Notes under the pieces: generated by a model | Seen by the model: the letters and a program-made list of their open reading frames with translations, nothing else | Database searches by the model: none | Told to the model about the DNA's origin: nothing | Translations under genes and position numbers: made by a program | Part shown: positions 956-35,559 of the stretch, piece by piece | Layout: each line of letters opens with the position of its first letter | Position numbering within the stretch: position 1 is the first letter of the stretch | Source: Bacteroidota bacterium | Lineage (GTDB): Bacteria; Bacteroidota; Bacteroidia; Chitinophagales; Saprospiraceae | Reading direction: 5' to 3' | NCBI GenBank assembly: GCA_016124585.1 | Contig: WGNL01000028.1 | Span: 1-48,678, forward strand | Length of the DNA stretch: 48,678 nt

Positions 956-960
956 TGTTG

Positions 961-1039
961 TATTGCCATATTGCTATATTTCGTATTGTTTTGATAGTTA
1001 AGCCGATAACATAACAATCAAACAATTCACCAATATAGC
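961..1039. repeat. Two-armed degenerate octamer spacer (imperfect inverted repeat)
   Basis: The spacer between two minus-strand genes begins with units of about 8 bases (ATTGCCAT, ATTGCTAT, ATTTCGT, ATTG...). The left arm at 973-999 (GCTATATTTCGTATTGTT then TTGATAGTT) is largely complementary to the right arm at 1013-1039 (AACAATCAAACAATTCAC then CAATATAGC), with a few mismatches and one bulge. It can fold into a hairpin of roughly 26 pairs with a 13-base loop. No T-run suggests a simple terminator. Confidence 0.6.
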
Positions 1040-1041
1040 CA

Positions 1042-7917: not shown

Positions 7918-7925
7918 CAAAGGTA
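7918..7925 (-). promoter_or_regulatory. Putative promoter TACCTTTG of the TPR lipoprotein gene
   Basis: On the minus strand TACCTTTG is followed by CAGCT and then the ATG. It is the same motif, at the same distance from the start codon, as the one before mfd. The start point would fall at or next to the start codon. Confidence 0.5.
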
Positions 7926-7964
7926 ATGAGAGAATAAGAGAATGGAGGAATGAGTGAATTTGTG
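7925..7964 (+). repeat. One-armed octamer tandem array upstream of the TPR lipoprotein gene
   Basis: Five successive 8-base units are visible: AATGAGAG, AATAAGAG, AATGGAGG, AATGAGTG and AATTTGTG. The array begins at the promoter of the TPR lipoprotein gene, in the spacer to the next co-directional minus-strand gene. No complementary second arm is seen. Confidence 0.5.
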
Positions 7965-18693: not shown

Positions 18694-18763
18694 TTTTTGG
18701 ATGGAATTAGAAGCAGCCTAAGCTTCAAAAGCAGCTCAAGTCTGCAAACTGCCAACTGAGTTC

Positions 18764-18798: not shown

Positions 18799-19722
18799 AT
18801 GGACGACGTCCGAGTGGAGTCGGAAGACAACAAAACATATTTCGCACCCAAGCCAGTCATGGTCTTACTGACCTTACTGCTGCTCATCGGGTTATGCGCC
18901 ATCCTCGGCAATGGACTGCTGATGCTGGCGGCCAACTTTCGAGGCATAAGCCTGCATGATGCCATCAGCATTGACGAACACAGCAGCCAAGGCAGCCGCT
19001 ATTTTGTGCGTGCAGCTTTGTTCTTGAACCACACCGCCAGTTTCCTTGTACCAGCCATTTTGACTTTGTGGCTTTTTTACAAAAAAAAGAGCTTCAAGGC
19101 TGCCTCATTGAACGTACCACCAGATTTGAGCATGTTGCTGCTCGGCTTGCTTTTCGTCATGTCGGCTTTTCCACTGGCACAAGTAGCATTCTTGGCCAAT
19201 CAATGGCTAGTTGGCCAGTTTCCAGCATTACAAACTTGGGTACACACCGAAAAACTGACCGTCAAGTTGATGGAAGGCTTGCTAGTCATGCAATCGCCGT
19301 GGGAAATGGTAGCCAGCTTGATAGTGATGGCCATCGTGCCAGCGCTCGGCGAGGAGTTGGTGTTCCGGGGCATTGGCCAACAGAAGCTCATCGAAATCAC
19401 GGGAAAACCAGCGCTCGGTATTGGGCTTACCGCCCTGATTTTCAGCATCACGCATTTCGAAATCCAGCGTTTTCTGGCCATCCTACTGCTTGGCCTCGTG
19501 CTCGGGCTGCTTTTTTATTGGACAAAAAACCTTTGGATTCCCATTGCTGCGCATTTCCTCAACAACGGCGCACAGGTTTTCATCGCTTGGTTCAACCAAG
19601 ATAAAATCAACCAACTCAAGGACGGCGCTGGTGACAATCTGCCCACGACCGTCATACTGGCCTCTGCTGCTGTATTTGTCACCTCCGGTTTTTTCCTCTG
19701 GAAAGAACGAAACAGTGAATAG
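18799..19722 (+). CDS. CPBP-family intramembrane glutamic endopeptidase
   Basis: The 307-residue integral membrane protein carries the three CPBP (Rce1-like) motifs: EELVFR with E185, E186 and R190; FSITH with F215 and H219; and HFLNN with H252 and N256. About eight hydrophobic segments are visible. Bacterial members cleave membrane substrates or modify peptides, and their substrates are mostly unknown. The symporter gene follows across a spacer occupied entirely by an octamer repeat hairpin. The promoter-like TATCTTTG upstream supports this start. Confidence 0.9.
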   Translation: MDDVRVESEDNKTYFAPKPVMVLLTLLLLIGLCAILGNGLLMLAANFRGISLHDAISIDEHSSQGSRYFVRAALFLNHTASFLVPAILTLWLFYKKKSFKAASLNVPPDLSMLLLGLLFVMSAFPLAQVAFLANQWLVGQFPALQTWVHTEKLTVKLMEGLLVMQSPWEMVASLIVMAIVPALGEELVFRGIGQQKLIEITGKPALGIGLTALIFSITHFEIQRFLAILLLGLVLGLLFYWTKNLWIPIAAHFLNNGAQVFIAWFNQDKINQLKDGAGDNLPTTVILASAAVFVTSGFFLWKERNSE

Positions 19723-19796
19723 AAACTGGGAAATTGAGAAATTGGGAAATTCTGCATCACCCAATTTCCTAATTTCCCAGTTTCCCAATTTCCCAG
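19723..19796. repeat. Two-armed octamer spacer (period 8), long hairpin
   Basis: The left arm (19723-19746) reads as octamers AAACTGGG, AAATTGAG, AAATTGGG. The right arm (19760-19783) reads CCCAATTT, CCTAATTT, CCCAGTTT and is the complement of the left except for two bases. A further CCCAATTT and CCCAG (19784-19796) extend the right arm. The whole spacer between two co-directional genes is made of this unit. It starts at the last base of the CPBP stop codon region and ends 4 bases before the GTG of the symporter gene. Confidence 0.75.
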
Positions 19797-19800
19797 CTTA

Positions 19801-21342
19801 GTGAACCTTTCACCCACCCTTATCCTCAGCATCATCATCGCCTATTTTGCGGTGCTCATCGGCATCTCGTGGTACACCAGCCGCAACGCCGACAATTCCG
19901 AGTTTTTCATGGCTGGCCGCAAATCACCTTGGTGGATTATCGCCATTGGAATGATTGGAACATCCATCTCCGGCGTCACCTTCATCAGCGTACCAGGTTA
20001 TGTGAACTCCTCCGCCATGAGCTATATGCAGACGGTGCTGGGTTACATGGTGGGCTATGCGGTTATTGCGTGGGTATTGCTGCCGCTGTACTATCGGCTG
20101 CACTTGGTGAGCATCTATGGGTATTTGGAGCAGCGGTTTGGGCCTGTGGCGTACAAAACAGGTTCTGCCTTCTTCCTATTGAGCCGCACGGTCGGCTCGT
20201 CCTTGCGCCTTTTTTTGATGGCAAAAGTGCTCCACGCCTTCGTGTTCGAGCCGATTTTCCATATCCCATTCGGCGTGACGGTACTAGTGACCATCATCCT
20301 CATTTACACCTATACTTTCAAGGGCGGCATCAAGACCATCATCTGGACGGATACGCTACAGACCCTTTTCCTCATAAGCTCGCTGATTTTGACCATCGTA
20401 TTGGTCGGGCAGCACATGCACCTAGGCATCGGTGACCTCATCAGCACGGTGAAGCACGATGCCCGTTCCCAAATTTTCTTCTTCGAAGGTGGCTGGAGCG
20501 ACCCGAAGAACTTCTTCAAGCAGTTCGTGGCAGGGGCATTCATCGCCATCGTGATGAGTGGCCTCGACCAGGACATCATGCAGAAAATCCTCACGGTGAA
20601 AACGCTCAAAGGCGCTCAGGTCAACATCTTTTCCTACTCATCGCTCATCGTGCTGATGAACCTGCTCTTCATGTCGCTCGGCGTGTTGTTGTTTATTTAC
20701 GCTTCGCAAAACGGCATCGAAATCCCCACGAAGGAAGTCACCAAATTTGCCGAAGGCGTCGCCACCACCACCAGCGTACCGGACACTGACCTGCTGTTCC
20801 CGACCATCGCTTTCAAGTATGCGCCAGCAGCAGTGGGCATCCTGTTTATACTCGGCATCACCGCCAGTAGTTACGCCAGTTCCGACTCGGCACTCACCTC
20901 GCTTACCACGGCTTGGTGCATCGACTTCCTCGGCTTCCAAAAAACCGATGTGAACAGCGAAGCCAATGCCCGCACCCGCAGACGGGTTCATTTGGCATTC
21001 TCCGCCATCTTTTTTGTGCTGATCATGGTCTTCCACTTCATGGCCACAGGCGAGGTCATCAAATTGGTCTTCGATTCAGCGAGCATCACCTACGGGCCGT
21101 TGTTGGGGCTGTTTGCCTTCGGTTTTTACACCAAACGCCAAATCAACGACCGCCTGTCGCTCTACGTCTGCTTGGGCGCCATCCTGCTGACGAGCCTGAT
21201 TTACCTTTACAACGGCTATCTCGGTTACCCCATCTTCGGCTACAAGTTCAGCTTTGAACTGCTGGTGCTGAATGGGTTGCTGACGTTCCTCGGACTGCTG
21301 GCCATTTCTCATAAAGGGGATGGTAATTTTGTGAGGAGATGA
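19801..21342 (+). CDS. Sodium:solute symporter (SSS family)
   Basis: The 513-residue protein has about 13 membrane helices in the SSS arrangement. Signatures are SEFFMAGRKSPWWIIAIGM near residue 37, the GTSISGVTFISVPG segment, and a later TASSYASSDSALTSL region that lies where the sodium site is found in the family. It moves a solute with Na+ across the inner membrane; the substrate cannot be read from sequence. The GTG start lies directly after the repeat spacer. The C-terminus is short, with no regulatory domain. Confidence 0.92.
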   Translation: MNLSPTLILSIIIAYFAVLIGISWYTSRNADNSEFFMAGRKSPWWIIAIGMIGTSISGVTFISVPGYVNSSAMSYMQTVLGYMVGYAVIAWVLLPLYYRLHLVSIYGYLEQRFGPVAYKTGSAFFLLSRTVGSSLRLFLMAKVLHAFVFEPIFHIPFGVTVLVTIILIYTYTFKGGIKTIIWTDTLQTLFLISSLILTIVLVGQHMHLGIGDLISTVKHDARSQIFFFEGGWSDPKNFFKQFVAGAFIAIVMSGLDQDIMQKILTVKTLKGAQVNIFSYSSLIVLMNLLFMSLGVLLFIYASQNGIEIPTKEVTKFAEGVATTTSVPDTDLLFPTIAFKYAPAAVGILFILGITASSYASSDSALTSLTTAWCIDFLGFQKTDVNSEANARTRRRVHLAFSAIFFVLIMVFHFMATGEVIKLVFDSASITYGPLLGLFAFGFYTKRQINDRLSLYVCLGAILLTSLIYLYNGYLGYPIFGYKFSFELLVLNGLLTFLGLLAISHKGDGNFVRR

Positions 21343-21353
21343 AATGGGTTTTG

Positions 21354-21501
21354 GGTTTCAAAGGTTTCAGGTTTAAGGGAGGTCGCATGCTAAATCCCTA
21401 TATCCCAAACCTGAACCTAAAGAAGCCTGCGCACCCAATTATACCTGCCTCTCCCTGAAACCCTAAACCTCTGAAACCTGAAACCCCTGAAACCTGAAAC
21501 C
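21354..21501. repeat. Two-armed heptamer-to-nonamer spacer based on CTGAAAC
   Basis: The left arm (21354-21382, GGTTTCAAAGGTTTCAGG then TTTAAGGGAGG) is complementary, with a few mismatches, to 21448-21478 (CCTCTCCCTGAAACCC then TAAACCTCTGAAACC). The right side continues as CTGAAAC units to 21501. The 65-base loop between the arms carries further related pieces such as CCCAAACCTGAACCTAAAG. It fills most of the 178-base gap between the symporter gene and the flavin reductase-like gene. Confidence 0.7.
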
Positions 21502-25087: not shown

Positions 25088-25297
25088 GTTGGCACTGGCC
25101 ACTTATTCGTTGGCACAAGCCCCTGCATGGTTGGCAGGGGTTTGTGCTTTTATGGCACTTGCCGCTGCATAGTTGGCACTCGTCGTTGCAAAGTTGGCAT
25201 TCGCTATTGCGTGGTTAGCACTCTTCATGGATTTATCAATACTCATCGTGGTGTAGTTGGCACTCATCGTTGCAAAATTGGCAGAGGTCGCTGCACC
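25088..25297. repeat. Ten tandem 21-bp degenerate units
   Basis: Ten consecutive units of exactly 21 bases can be lined up, starting GTTGGCACTGGCC..., GTTGGCACAAGCC..., GTTGGCAGGGG..., TATGGCACTTGCC..., GTTGGCACTCGTC... and so on, with consensus beginning GTTGGCACTC. The period of 21 keeps a reading frame. On the minus strand each unit encodes a heptapeptide close to SANFATM. There are no unique spacers, so it is not a CRISPR array. Confidence 0.85.
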
Positions 25298-25377: not shown

Positions 25378-25665
25378 CCCAGTTCTTTCAAGTCTTCCTT
25401 CCAACTCTCCCACCCAATAAAAGTCCAAGTTTGAGGAAGTGTCCAGCGCAGCGGCACTTGCGGTTTCGTAGCAGTAGCCCGCATTCCAGCGGTTGTCCGA
25501 CCTCAACATAGCGGCTATGGAAAAAAATAGGCAGGTAAAGCATCGCTTACTAGCATGAAGCTGTCCTTAGGGAAAAGAAGTAAGTGAATGCACGACATAA
25601 CAATTCGAAACCAGTTGCCCCTGATTCACCATCTTACCTATATATGCTGCGCCTTAGTATGCACA
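25378..25665. repeat. Dispersed intergenic repeat, copy 1
   Basis: This non-coding stretch shares blocks with 27358-27589 and 29395-29578: CAGTTCT...CAAGTCTTCC, AAAAGTCCAAGTTTGAGGAA, GCGCAGCGGCACTT, and, after a longer interruption, TTACC.ATAT.TGCTGCGC (25634 onward). The block GCAGCGGCACTTGCGG followed by TTTCGTAGCAGTAGCCCGCA is shared with copy 2. Open frames on the minus strand here (for example 25264-25509) are repeat-derived and not supported as genes. Confidence 0.7.
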
Positions 25666-27357: not shown

Positions 27358-27589
27358 CAAGTATGTTTACTATCCAAGGCATTCGTTATTTCAAGCCTAG
27401 CACAGTGCTTGCAAGCATACATTTGCAACCGCAAAACCTTGCAGGTATTAGTTACTCCCCGTTGTCCCAAGTCTTCCATCTTTCCCAAAAGCAGTACGCC
27501 AGCACCTTTAAAATATAGCAGTAGTTTGAGCAAGTGTTCACGCAGCGGCACTTGCGGTTTCGTAGCAGTAGCCCGCAAGAGCCGCTGCG
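27358..27589. repeat. Dispersed intergenic repeat, copy 2, with a 17-bp hairpin
   Basis: This copy begins with CAAGTATGTTTACTA (27358-27372, also at 29395-29409) and contains CCCAAGTCTTCC, GTTTGAGCAAGTGTTC and the CGCAGCGGCACTTGCGG block. The last block (27541-27557) pairs with 27573-27589 (CCGCAAGAGCCGCTGCG) with a single mismatch around a 15-base loop. Copy 1 has the left arm and loop but a diverged right arm. Confidence 0.72.
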
Positions 27590-27790
27590 CTAGACTCTTG
27601 CTGGAACTGTGGCTATTTTTCGGGTGGGGGTCGTAGCTTTGTGGGAAGGTTTTGGGAGCCTTGCCACAACTGGGAAATTACAAAATGGATTGCTGAGACT
27701 CGGAAAACTTTCAGCAGCAAAATGTATCTTCAATTTTTAAAATAAAAACAGGCTACCGTACGGGCTGCGTAAAAAAAAATCTAACCGGTT
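27590..27790. other. Gene-free stretch before the beta-lactamase-like gene
   Basis: No gene is supported here. The sequence includes GCCACAACTGGGAAA at 27663-27677, identical to 23413-23427 upstream of the PLD-like gene, and a pair of short complementary GC-rich pieces. No TAnnTTTG promoter was recognised. Confidence 0.4.
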
Positions 27791-33029: not shown

Positions 33030-34061
33030 ATGAAACTTTTCAGTTTTTTCACACAAGAATTAGCCATAGACTTGGGAACTGCCAACACGCTCATCATGAG
33101 CGATGGCAAAGTGGTGGTGGACGAGCCGTCTATCGTGGCCATTGACCGGCGTACGGGGGAGACAATTGCCGTGGGCACTAAGGCCATGCAGATGCACGAG
33201 AAAACCCATGAAAATATAAAAACCGTGCGCCCATTGAGGGACGGCGTTATCGCTGACTTTCAGGCTGCGGAAAATATGATTGAGGGTCTCATCAACATGA
33301 TCGGCAACCGCCGCAGGTTTTTTTCCCATTTAAAAATGGTCATCTGCATCCCTTCTGGCATTACGGAAGTGGAAAAAAGGGCCGTTTTCGACTCCGCTGA
33401 CCACGTTGATTCTAAGGAAACCTACCTTATCCACGAACCAATGGCTGCTGCGCTGGGTATTGGCTTAGAGGTGGAGGAGCCAGTCGGTAACGTCATCATT
33501 GACATCGGGGGCGGTACGACGGAGATTGCGGTGATAGCACTTTCCGGCATCGTTTGCGACCAGTCTATCCGCACTGCGGGTGACGAGTTCACCGCCGACA
33601 TTATGGACTACATGAAACGGGCACATAATATCCTTATCGGGGAGCGCACTGCTGAACAAATCAAAATACATGTCGGCTCTGCCCTGCACGAACTTGATAG
33701 CCCACCACCTGATTATGCCGTGAATGGCCGTGACTTAATGACGGGCATTCCGAAGCAGATTACGATTTCGTACCACGAGGTATCGCAGGCCATTGACAAA
33801 TCCATCGGAAAAGTGGAGGAGGCTGTGATGAAGGCCTTGGAATCCACGCCGCCAGAGTTGGCTGCCGATATTTACAAAACTGGTTTGTACCTGACTGGTG
33901 GTGGCGCGTTGCTTCGTGGCCTCGACAAACGGCTGAGTGCCAATACCAAACTTCCTGTGCATATTGCGGAAGACCCGCTGCGTGCGGTTGTTCGTGGCAC
34001 AGGCATTGCATTGAAAAACACCGATCGTTTTTCCTTCCTGATTGATAGAAAAAGCGTCTAA
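33030..34061 (+). CDS. mreB: Rod shape-determining protein MreB
   Basis: The 343-residue actin homologue has phosphate 1 loop AIDLGTANTLI at its start, the VIDIGGGTTEIAVIALSG phosphate 2 loop, and the adenosine motif LTGGGALLRGL near the end. It polymerises under the inner membrane and guides the elongasome. The N-terminal LFSFFTQ gives an amphipathic membrane-binding helix. The frame is open from 32964, but the ATG at 33030 gives the conserved start. A near-consensus GACCTTTG at 32959-32966 may be the promoter. It heads the cluster mreB-mreC-mreD-mrdA. Confidence 0.97.
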   Translation: MKLFSFFTQELAIDLGTANTLIMSDGKVVVDEPSIVAIDRRTGETIAVGTKAMQMHEKTHENIKTVRPLRDGVIADFQAAENMIEGLINMIGNRRRFFSHLKMVICIPSGITEVEKRAVFDSADHVDSKETYLIHEPMAAALGIGLEVEEPVGNVIIDIGGGTTEIAVIALSGIVCDQSIRTAGDEFTADIMDYMKRAHNILIGERTAEQIKIHVGSALHELDSPPPDYAVNGRDLMTGIPKQITISYHEVSQAIDKSIGKVEEAVMKALESTPPELAADIYKTGLYLTGGGALLRGLDKRLSANTKLPVHIAEDPLRAVVRGTGIALKNTDRFSFLIDRKSV

Positions 34062-34144
34062 GAATGATGAATGATAAATGGTGAATGATGAATAGCAGCG
34101 ACGCCGTTCAACATTCACCATTTATCATTTACCATTTATCATTC
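34062..34144. repeat. Two-armed heptamer spacer between mreB and mreC
   Basis: The left arm (34062-34093) is built of AATGATG, AATGATA, AATGGTG, AATGATG units. The right arm (34113-34144) is built of CACCATT, TATCATT, TACCATT, TATCATT units. The arms are 32 bases each and complementary apart from about six positions, with a 19-base loop. The array starts at the last base of the mreB stop region and ends 4 bases before the ATG of mreC, so it fills the whole spacer inside the operon. Confidence 0.75.
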
Positions 34145-34148
34145 CGCC

Positions 34149-34985
34149 ATGTTCAACCTTGTCCAGCTTCTGATAAAACTGAGCGGCTTCCTACTGTTTG
34201 TGCTACTGGAAGCTATCTGTTTTTCGTTGGTCGTGCGGTACAATGGCAATCAAGAGAAAGTTTACACGAATACCGTGAACCAGTTCACGGGTTGGATGCA
34301 AAAAAAGAGTGCCTCCACTTACCAATATTTCCAGCTTTATGACGAAAACAAGCGGTTGGCAAAGGAAAATTCCAAGCTGCTTGACCGCCTTGCCAATGTT
34401 GGAATCAATGTACAGAATCCACTGGACACTGTTTGGGCAGATACTTTGCAGCCCAAGTATAGTTTTCTAGAAGCACAGGTGATTCGAAATTCCATCAATC
34501 AAAACCACAATTACATCACGCTGAATAAGGGCAGTGATGACGGGGTGACGGCACACAGCGGTGTAGTCAGCGACGATGGAGTGATTGGAATCGTTCGAAA
34601 AGTTTCGAAAAATTATTCAGTGGCCATGTCCATTCTGCACAGGCAGGCCATCGTGAATGCAAGGGTACGGCACAAGAACTACTTCGGCCCGATGACGTGG
34701 AAGAGCGACAACATCCATATCTTCAACCTTGAAAACATCCCAAAGGATGCCCCAGTCACGAAGGGCGACACCATCGAGACCAGCGGCTACTCCACGATGT
34801 TCCCGCCGGGCATTGCATTGGGGGTGGTGGATAAGCTTTGGATGGACCCTGGAAGCAATTTTTTCACTATTGAGGTGAGGTCGTTTGCGAAGTTGAGCAA
34901 CTTACAACATGCGTATATTGTGCGAAATATTTTCAAAGACGAACAAGAGCAACTGGAGAAATCCGTGATAACCGAAGATGAATAG
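34149..34985 (+). CDS. mreC: Rod shape-determining protein MreC
   Basis: The 278-residue protein has one N-terminal transmembrane helix (about 8-28), a coiled-coil stretch (about 60-95, YDENKRLAKENSKLLDRLA) and the MreC beta domain with NYITLNKGSDDGV and VVSDDGVIGIV. It links the cytoplasmic MreB to periplasmic penicillin-binding proteins. It is slightly shorter than E. coli MreC. It overlaps mreD by 8 bases. Confidence 0.93.
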   Translation: MFNLVQLLIKLSGFLLFVLLEAICFSLVVRYNGNQEKVYTNTVNQFTGWMQKKSASTYQYFQLYDENKRLAKENSKLLDRLANVGINVQNPLDTVWADTLQPKYSFLEAQVIRNSINQNHNYITLNKGSDDGVTAHSGVVSDDGVIGIVRKVSKNYSVAMSILHRQAIVNARVRHKNYFGPMTWKSDNIHIFNLENIPKDAPVTKGDTIETSGYSTMFPPGIALGVVDKLWMDPGSNFFTIEVRSFAKLSNLQHAYIVRNIFKDEQEQLEKSVITEDE

Positions 34986-35499: not shown

Positions 35500-35501
35500 C
35501 T

Positions 35502-35553
35502 ATTGATTGAATGGGTGAAGGATGAACATATCCACTCATTCAGTATCTCAATC
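35502..35553. repeat. Decayed two-armed octamer array before mrdA
   Basis: Left units ATTGATTG, AATGGGTG, AAGGATGA and right units TATCCA, CTCATTCA, GTATCTCA, ATCC can be discerned. The arms pair only partly. The array occupies the spacer between mreD and mrdA and explains the open frame that extends upstream of the true mrdA start. Confidence 0.45.
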
Positions 35554-35559
35554 CTTGTA

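Follow-up and report, generated by a model that had tools for sequence, protein, structure and literature searches.

STRR sequences of cyanobacteria are direct tandem arrays that seldom have an inverted arm, and REP and REPIN sequences, which go with RAYT transposases, are intergenic, the REPs being palindromes of 20–40 bp and not tandem heptamers. We class the elements analysed here with paired heptamer repeats, of which those of Xanthomonas are the closest described kind. According to the parts of the report available to us, the paired GGGAATC heptamers of Xanthomonas have G-rich 7-nt units that are about 90% intergenic and lie nearer to the upstream gene (28 nt vs. 160 nt), their two arms are in convergent orientation in 70 and 75 cases, and most of them are found between the same genes in two species, varying in length and sequence (Rehm et al. 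2015, PMC4692102). The same parts mention the short tandemly repeated heptamers of cyanobacteria, including GGGGA(C/T)T of Nostoc, where inverted pairs are few (PMC4692102). The TAACTGA repeats of Beggiatoaceae are heptamer arrays near start codons and are also found in five Bacteroidetes; the accessible portion of that study describes direct repeats of one unit, with 169 sets and one indirect (PMC4679880). Template-switch mutations, in turn, create and maintain hairpins by copying one arm onto the other, and template switching has been offered as a cause of the greater number of G–C than C–G stem pairs in the sections available to us of a study on RNA genes (PMC8794818).

In the window, by which we mean the whole 48,678-nt stretch of Saprospiraceae DNA analysed, the spacer between a CPBP/Rce1-like gene and a sodium:solute symporter gene is filled entirely by a genuine two-armed octamer array at 19723–19800 (Table 1). 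An initial annotation had named cyanobacterial heptamers as its nearest relatives; these are related in kind, sharing tandem 7-nt units and a mostly intergenic location, but the paired Xanthomonas heptamers are nearer. Unlike in the cyanobacterial STRR sequences, 23 of the 34 strong tandem spacers in our genome sample also form hairpins (hairpin score ≥12), the remaining 11 scoring below. Heptamer arrays near start codons recall the TAACTGA repeats, whose unit is not present at the window's four sites when the units there are read. While the accessible text on Xanthomonas describes one family, GGGANTN, discussed as G-quadruplex, here there are many families, most of them without G-tracts: AATGATG, CAGTTGG and GTGATTGG lack G-tracts of three, and AATTGGG has one but differs from GGGAATC. 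A second difference from Xanthomonas, as far as that text describes it, is that the unit family changes here at orthologous gaps. Paired heptamer repeats are already known, and sequence variation at common gaps within one family was noted by Rehm et al. in the parts available to us (PMC4692102). What looks new is that there are many unit families and that, at gaps which stay occupied, one family replaces another; the literature, as far as it was accessible, yielded no report of unit families replacing one another at one orthologous gap with the hairpin kept.

Arrays in the window and across the genome sample

Table 1. Arrays, related sites and neighbouring genes in the window
Feature	Position	Strand	Basis
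Octamer array, unit AATTGGGA / TCCCAATT, with loop between arms	19723..19800	.	sequence, period, fold
CPBP/Rce1-like gene (PF02517), upstream of the 19723 array	18799..19722	+	profile match
Sodium:solute symporter gene (PF00474), downstream of the 19723 array	19801..21342	+	profile match; orthologues found
Two-armed array, unit CAGGTTT / AAACCTG, long 69-nt centre	21346..21501	.	period and hairpin
mreB (PF06723)	33030..34061	+	profile match
Two-armed heptamer array, unit AATGATG, fills mreB–mreC spacer	34062..34144	.	period and hairpin
mreC (PF04085)	34149..34985	+	profile match
Weak or decayed two-armed array, TTGCTATA-like unit	956..1041	.	below strict threshold
Array-free spacer; at the orthologous gap, G001 and G011 have a two-armed array of the GTGAGAGA type	35500..35559	.	
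Possible relic, CTGCAAACTGCCAACTGAG stretch; CAGTTGG arrays there in G008, G011 and G013	18742..18758	.	relic by eye

The arms of the array between the CPBP and symporter genes lie at 19723–19751 and 19771–19799 (29 nt each, 90% complementary), and an alternative stem of 25 nt is 92% complementary, with two mismatches; with a period of 8, this bears out the earlier description of a spacer made wholly of octamers in two opposed arms that form a stem with two mismatches. At least three more spacers had been said to share the architecture, which holds for 21346–21501 and 34062–34144, whereas the site at 961–1039 is weak (period score 10, hairpin score 13) and fails our strict test, leaving three of the four named sites that pass. 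The z scores of the RNA folds are −7.7 for 19723–19800, −6.7 for 21346–21486 and −9.2 for 34062–34148, against only −3.2 for 956–1041. Two of the arrays end 4 bases before a start codon, as had been stated, the repeats of one stopping short of GTG 19801 and those of the other short of ATG 34149. The G013 spacer orthologous to 21346–21501 is 25 nt long and has no array. Rfam gave no matches within the window at the gathering score.

The strict test passed 39 of 443 spacers of 30–500 bp in an 848-kb sample of the genome, although at least two of the 39, both of them exceptions to the arm polarity described below, look like AT-rich stretches and false calls; among the shuffled spacers it passed 0 of 443. 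With a looser test combining period and hairpin, 33 of 247 spacers of 30–600 bp (448 kb) passed, where shuffles predict 0.3. Extrapolation from the 848-kb sample gives about 300 arrays per genome of 6.6 Mb. The median span is 70 nt and the median arm 27 nt. As in the accessible description of the Xanthomonas repeats, 7-nt units prevail (best period 7 in 27 of the 39 arrays, 8 in 9, 9 in 2 and 10 in 1, the array at 19723 itself having 8), and the arrays are intergenic and close to the end of the upstream gene: coding slices passed the strict test in 0 of 197 cases and the looser one in 1 of 197, and of the 15 co-directional arrays whose spacer leaves 40 nt or more of slack, 9 lie within 17 nt of the stop codon, where 2.6 are expected. 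One apparent array, G006_C22, is a run of Ns, kept in the coding-slice and start-codon-distance, mirror-test and stop-codon-distance, mixed-set mismatch, pair-alignment and gap-background counts and removed from the polarity (85 arrays), loop-word and within- and between-genome sharing counts; G005_C437b duplicates G005_C437 and was dropped from the mirror, mismatch, pair-alignment and polarity sets. The genus relatives are metagenome assemblies, which might suggest chance or an assembly artefact, a reading to which we give practically no credence: the shuffles yield 0 of 443, and the same build is seen in isolate genomes of Spirosoma, Larkinella and Dyadobacter.

By our simple gene caller, all four window sites lie between co-directional genes, as the initial annotation had reported, but a restriction to such neighbours is ruled out by the arrays found between convergent genes (10/63 spacers) and divergent genes (4/78). 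Co-directional spacers carry arrays in 25 of 302 cases (17/184 in ++ and 8/118 in −− orientation), the script placing some starts wrongly (the CPBP gap of G001, for example, was labelled divergent). The annotation had named equal occurrence between convergent and divergent genes as an outcome that would speak against its view, and the three rates show this in part.

The convergent cases, the hairpins past stop codons and a 3′ arm that is C-rich and G-poor in either direction are features also expected if the arrays were transcription terminators or attenuators made of repeats, and in Xanthomonas, according to the available parts of the report, such repeats coincide with transcript starts or stops more frequently than controls do (PMC4692102). 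We consider such a role very improbable here. By reading, the repeats of the 19723 array are followed by CTTAGTG and those of the 34062 array by CGCCATG, neither a T-run, and an intrinsic terminator is unsupported, the U-tract being absent after both hairpins; a terminator scan confined to loops of 3–8 nt listed none at 19723–19800. The hairpin ends no more than 20 nt before the next start codon in 28 of 47 co-directional arrays (one of which may be a run of Ns), with little room for a promoter, and one sits between mreB and mreC.

Unit families and orthologous gaps

The arrays fall into many unit families common to several loci. GAAATTGGGAAATT, a 14-mer of the 19723 array, has 17 matches at ten places in the 6.6-Mb genome, with 0 for the reversed-pattern control, and the 34062 element matches many loci across the genus; the earlier claim that units are private to their loci is thereby ruled out. 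Among 86 arrays from this genome and its relatives, a set that includes one run of Ns, 109 of 3,655 pairs align at a score of at least 18, compared with 7 when one partner is reversed. Once orthologous gaps are removed, the family is shared by 44 of 945 within-genome pairs (permutation mean 28.7, P = 0.0065), compared with 65 of 2,578 pairs between genomes of the genus (reversed control 10). Between Saprospiraceae and Cytophagales, 16 of 3,825 pairs are of one family (reversed control 6), and set against the figure within the genus this makes convergence on a small unit space look insufficient as the whole cause of the sharing.

The abundance of the families depends on the lineage: RATGATG has 106 matches in G011 and 0–41 in the other 13 genomes; RGTGATT, a unit so nearly mirror-symmetric that its reversed control is not independent, has 289 in G010 and 0–79 elsewhere; and AATTGGG pairs number 0–86 per genome. 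In one family count the reversed sequence, TTGGCAGTTGGCAG, proves to be a genuine family and hence no control. The sharing of families between loci, a little commoner inside one genome than across genomes, implies that dispersal is part of the story. One unit family is also found on plasmids of Bacteroides, Parabacteroides and cyanobacteria; three of the four plasmid stretches read are two-armed, the one of Planktothrix being slightly under the hairpin threshold. The spread over the phylum is uneven, with GGCAGTTGGCAGTTGG present in 17 of 296 genomes (its reverse in 4 of 296). Of the spacers at Spirosoma loci, 18 of 144 have arrays; the figures are 13/123 for Larkinella, 14/476 for Dyadobacter and 0/81 for Telluribacter, Persicitalea and others together.

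Dispersed families of lineage-specific abundance, and gaps of which some have arrays and others none, would also suit many families of non-autonomous mobile hairpins, MITE- or REPIN-like, that are moved by an enzyme favouring hairpins or gene ends, the occupied gaps being insertion hot spots. The Y1 (HUH) transposase family is matched in 12 of 14 genomes, which also speaks in its favour, yet we hold this account to be improbable. An array was flagged beside 3 of the 11 Y1 genes scanned (12 stretches), but the one in L229 is the transposase's own palindrome and two are left (L225 and L227); in 77 loops, families pooled, no word exceeds the 95% level seen in shuffles; and at the gap C5:129819 five species with differing units all retain the flank CCAATCACCGATT within about 8 nt after the array (by eye). 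The arrays resemble REP and REPIN sequences as intergenic palindromes, but the RAYT-like Y1 gene of the window's own genome (G000) is flanked by its own, different palindrome, CACGGACTGCCAGTCCGTG. Mobilisation of the RAYT/IS200 kind is unsupported, with a heptamer array beside 2 of 11 Y1 genes and an unrelated palindrome at the G000 gene. The latter encodes a RAYT-like HUH protein of 213 aa on the minus strand at 2322–2963 of L222 (G000:C35:58500–63500), with the CACGGACTGCCAGTCCGTG palindromes on its flanks; stretches similar to these lie at C5:313016–313070 and in the C14 sample.

Seven of the eight orthologous CPBP–symporter loci read have arrays, of two unit classes: AATTGGG-type in G000, G008, G001, G013 and G012, and GACGGTT-type in G006 and G005. 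At the eighth locus, in G011, the sequence upstream of the symporter differs. The mreB–mreC gap has an array in 12 of 14 genus genomes, 10 by score and 2 decayed ones by eye (G002 and G009), while neither G003 nor G004 has one; the units belong to four families, AATGATG, CAGTTGG, GTGATTGG and AATGGTT. In G010 (L149) this spacer of 143 nt is mostly a single AATGGTT-unit palindrome with a long central stem and a hairpin score of 40. On a nine-species protein tree, the mreB–mreC units need 5 changes where 3 would be enough without homoplasy, while the CPBP and C5:129819 gaps require none beyond the minimum. By the looser test, the relative has an array in 18 of 28 orthologous spacer pairs in which G000 has one and in 12 of 97 in which it does not. 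Across 29 gaps with at least three species each, arrays are distributed far less evenly than chance would give (0 of 5,000 simulations).

Array pairs within these 29 gaps differ in family in 43 of 66 cases and agree in 23, a count that leaves out G005 at the CPBP gap and takes a local alignment score of at least 17 as the same family, so that drifted relatives may count as different, notably at clpS–recR. Without two doubtful sites, C5:206941 and W:12831, which resemble an AT-rich stretch and a plain terminator, 42 of 64 pairs differ and 22 agree. In the Cytophagales, the clpS–recR gap (ClpS and RecR being identified at one locus only, L063) is occupied by an array at 12 of the 15 loci from Spirosoma and Larkinella, and 56 of 66 pairs are of different families and 10 of one, some of the differing ones being drifted relatives. 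Replacement is not universal: a Dyadobacter gap with an array in 11 of 26 loci mostly keeps one family (45 of 55 pairs, the other 10 differing). These comparisons suggest that in related species the hairpin slot persists while the unit family is replaced; the initial statement that the architecture is kept while the unit sequence varies holds even at one gap across species. Ordinary gene conversion fails to explain the replacement, because units of different families have little sequence in common. The unit in a slot tracks the most abundant family of the genome weakly at best, being the commonest of three counted families at the mreB–mreC gap in 7 of 10 genomes, where about 4 would be expected by hand arithmetic on the label frequencies.

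Arm symmetry, polarity and origin of the arrays

The arms are mirror images to a greater degree than repetition of units alone would give. When the units of one arm are put in random order, the hairpin score drops from 20.9 to 18.0 (59/72 arrays, P = 7 × 10^-9), in a set whose selection relied partly on hairpin score and so favours the arm order found. The result fits the copying of short local repeats with inversion, one of the two origins proposed at the outset. The arms are also polar: G outnumbers C in the 5′ arm of 83 of 85 arrays and of 32 of 33 Cytophagales arrays, the G-rich strand of the arms converging on the centre as in the accessible account of the Xanthomonas repeats, while among 79 other hairpins G exceeds C in 47 and C exceeds G in 25. 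An excess of G–C over C–G is likewise reported for template-switch hairpins in the available sections of the study, which concerns RNA genes and has no tandem units; the excess of U–A over A–U that it expects (PMC8794818) is inconsistent here, with A above T in the arms of this genome and T above A in those of relatives.

The other proposed origin, selection for an RNA hairpin, is the main rival to writing at the DNA level. A stem past the stop codon might protect the upstream mRNA end, set the protein ratio of an operon (e.g., MreB over MreC) or couple stop and start, with the unit free to drift or be swapped. The very stable folds at three of the window sites, the excess of arrays just past stop codons and the persistence of slots across species are all consistent with such selection. 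So is the divergent gap C5:309951, in which, by eye, the array lies between an TATTTTTG-like box and the start codon in four of five species, the fifth having a variant box. At the divergent gap at window 18694, by contrast, the arrays of G008, G011 and G013 appear by eye upstream of an TATCTTTG-like box, and perhaps outside the transcript; both kinds of box we take to be Bacteroidota promoter elements. Arrays also occur in convergent gaps, at a higher rate, copies at the same gaps are decayed or absent, and random hairpins would do equally well, so that the tandem units and common families would need another cause.

Base-pair changes bear on the same question. Mismatches read on the sense strand number 52 G·U vs. 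62 A·C in the mixed set, 29 vs. 23 in the arrays of this genome and 31 vs. 23 in other hairpins; convergent arrays have 10 vs. 4 in this genome and 13 vs. 6 in the mixed set, and one-sided changes between orthologues come to 52 vs. 56 in overlapping pairs. Since other hairpins show nearly the same counts as the arrays of this genome, the test has little power: the claim of selection for an RNA hairpin gains no clear support from it, and the counts are at most weak evidence against such selection. Changes in both arms that preserve pairing make up 34 of 261 changed pairs, a count with no chance baseline, and would favour a selected stem. On balance we see the selected stem as possible but rather unlikely.

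Our preferred reading, held tentatively and at somewhat less than an even chance, is that slippage and template switching write the arrays at the DNA level, in long-lived slots and with units drawn partly from a shared pool. The element is a palindromic simple-sequence repeat, a short run of G-rich 7–8-nt units followed by a loop and the complementary run. As the period suggests, unit number would shift through replication slippage, and template switching at the hairpin may copy one arm onto the other, giving the mirror-image arms whose excess we observed. Arrays occupy intergenic gaps, often right past the stop codon, and some gaps have been occupied very long. The unit at an occupied gap is now and then replaced by another, and since several replacing units are abundant elsewhere in the same genome, a pool of families might rewrite the slots. 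The RNA hairpin would then be mainly a by-product tolerated by the neighbouring genes. The decayed or missing arrays at the mreB–mreC gap count in favour of toleration; that hairpins persist at some gaps throughout the genus, and across both Spirosoma and Larkinella, is difficult to reconcile with an element that is only tolerated, and slippage with template switching does not fully account for the polarity.

A bolder version, which we think improbable, is that Bacteroidota keep hairpin slots indifferent to sequence, where a dedicated writing process distinct from ordinary recombination would repeatedly swap both arms for heptamers of a genome-wide pool, G-rich arm first; this would be concerted evolution of structure on the scale of the genome, the letters being irrelevant. 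The mreB–mreC and clpS–recR gaps offer natural series for setting slippage with template switching against a mobile enzyme and against selection on the stem, and matching changes in both arms of an intergenic hairpin need not signal a functional RNA.

Other repeats were seen alongside the arrays. At window 7925–7964 there is a AATGAGAG-type tandem stretch whose partner arm is absent, and at 25153–25210 a tandem repeat of 21 nt in about 2.8 copies. A spacer of G000 C5, from 263985, has a hairpin of longer repeats of the GGGTCGCACCCATTTGTCACA type, a different repeat class. An imperfect inverted repeat of 100 nt with no tandem units lies at window 27456–27675 and is perhaps a MITE-like element; partial copies of it are found at window 25409–25483, C5:142265–142304, C5:144642–144738 and C45:261862–261939.
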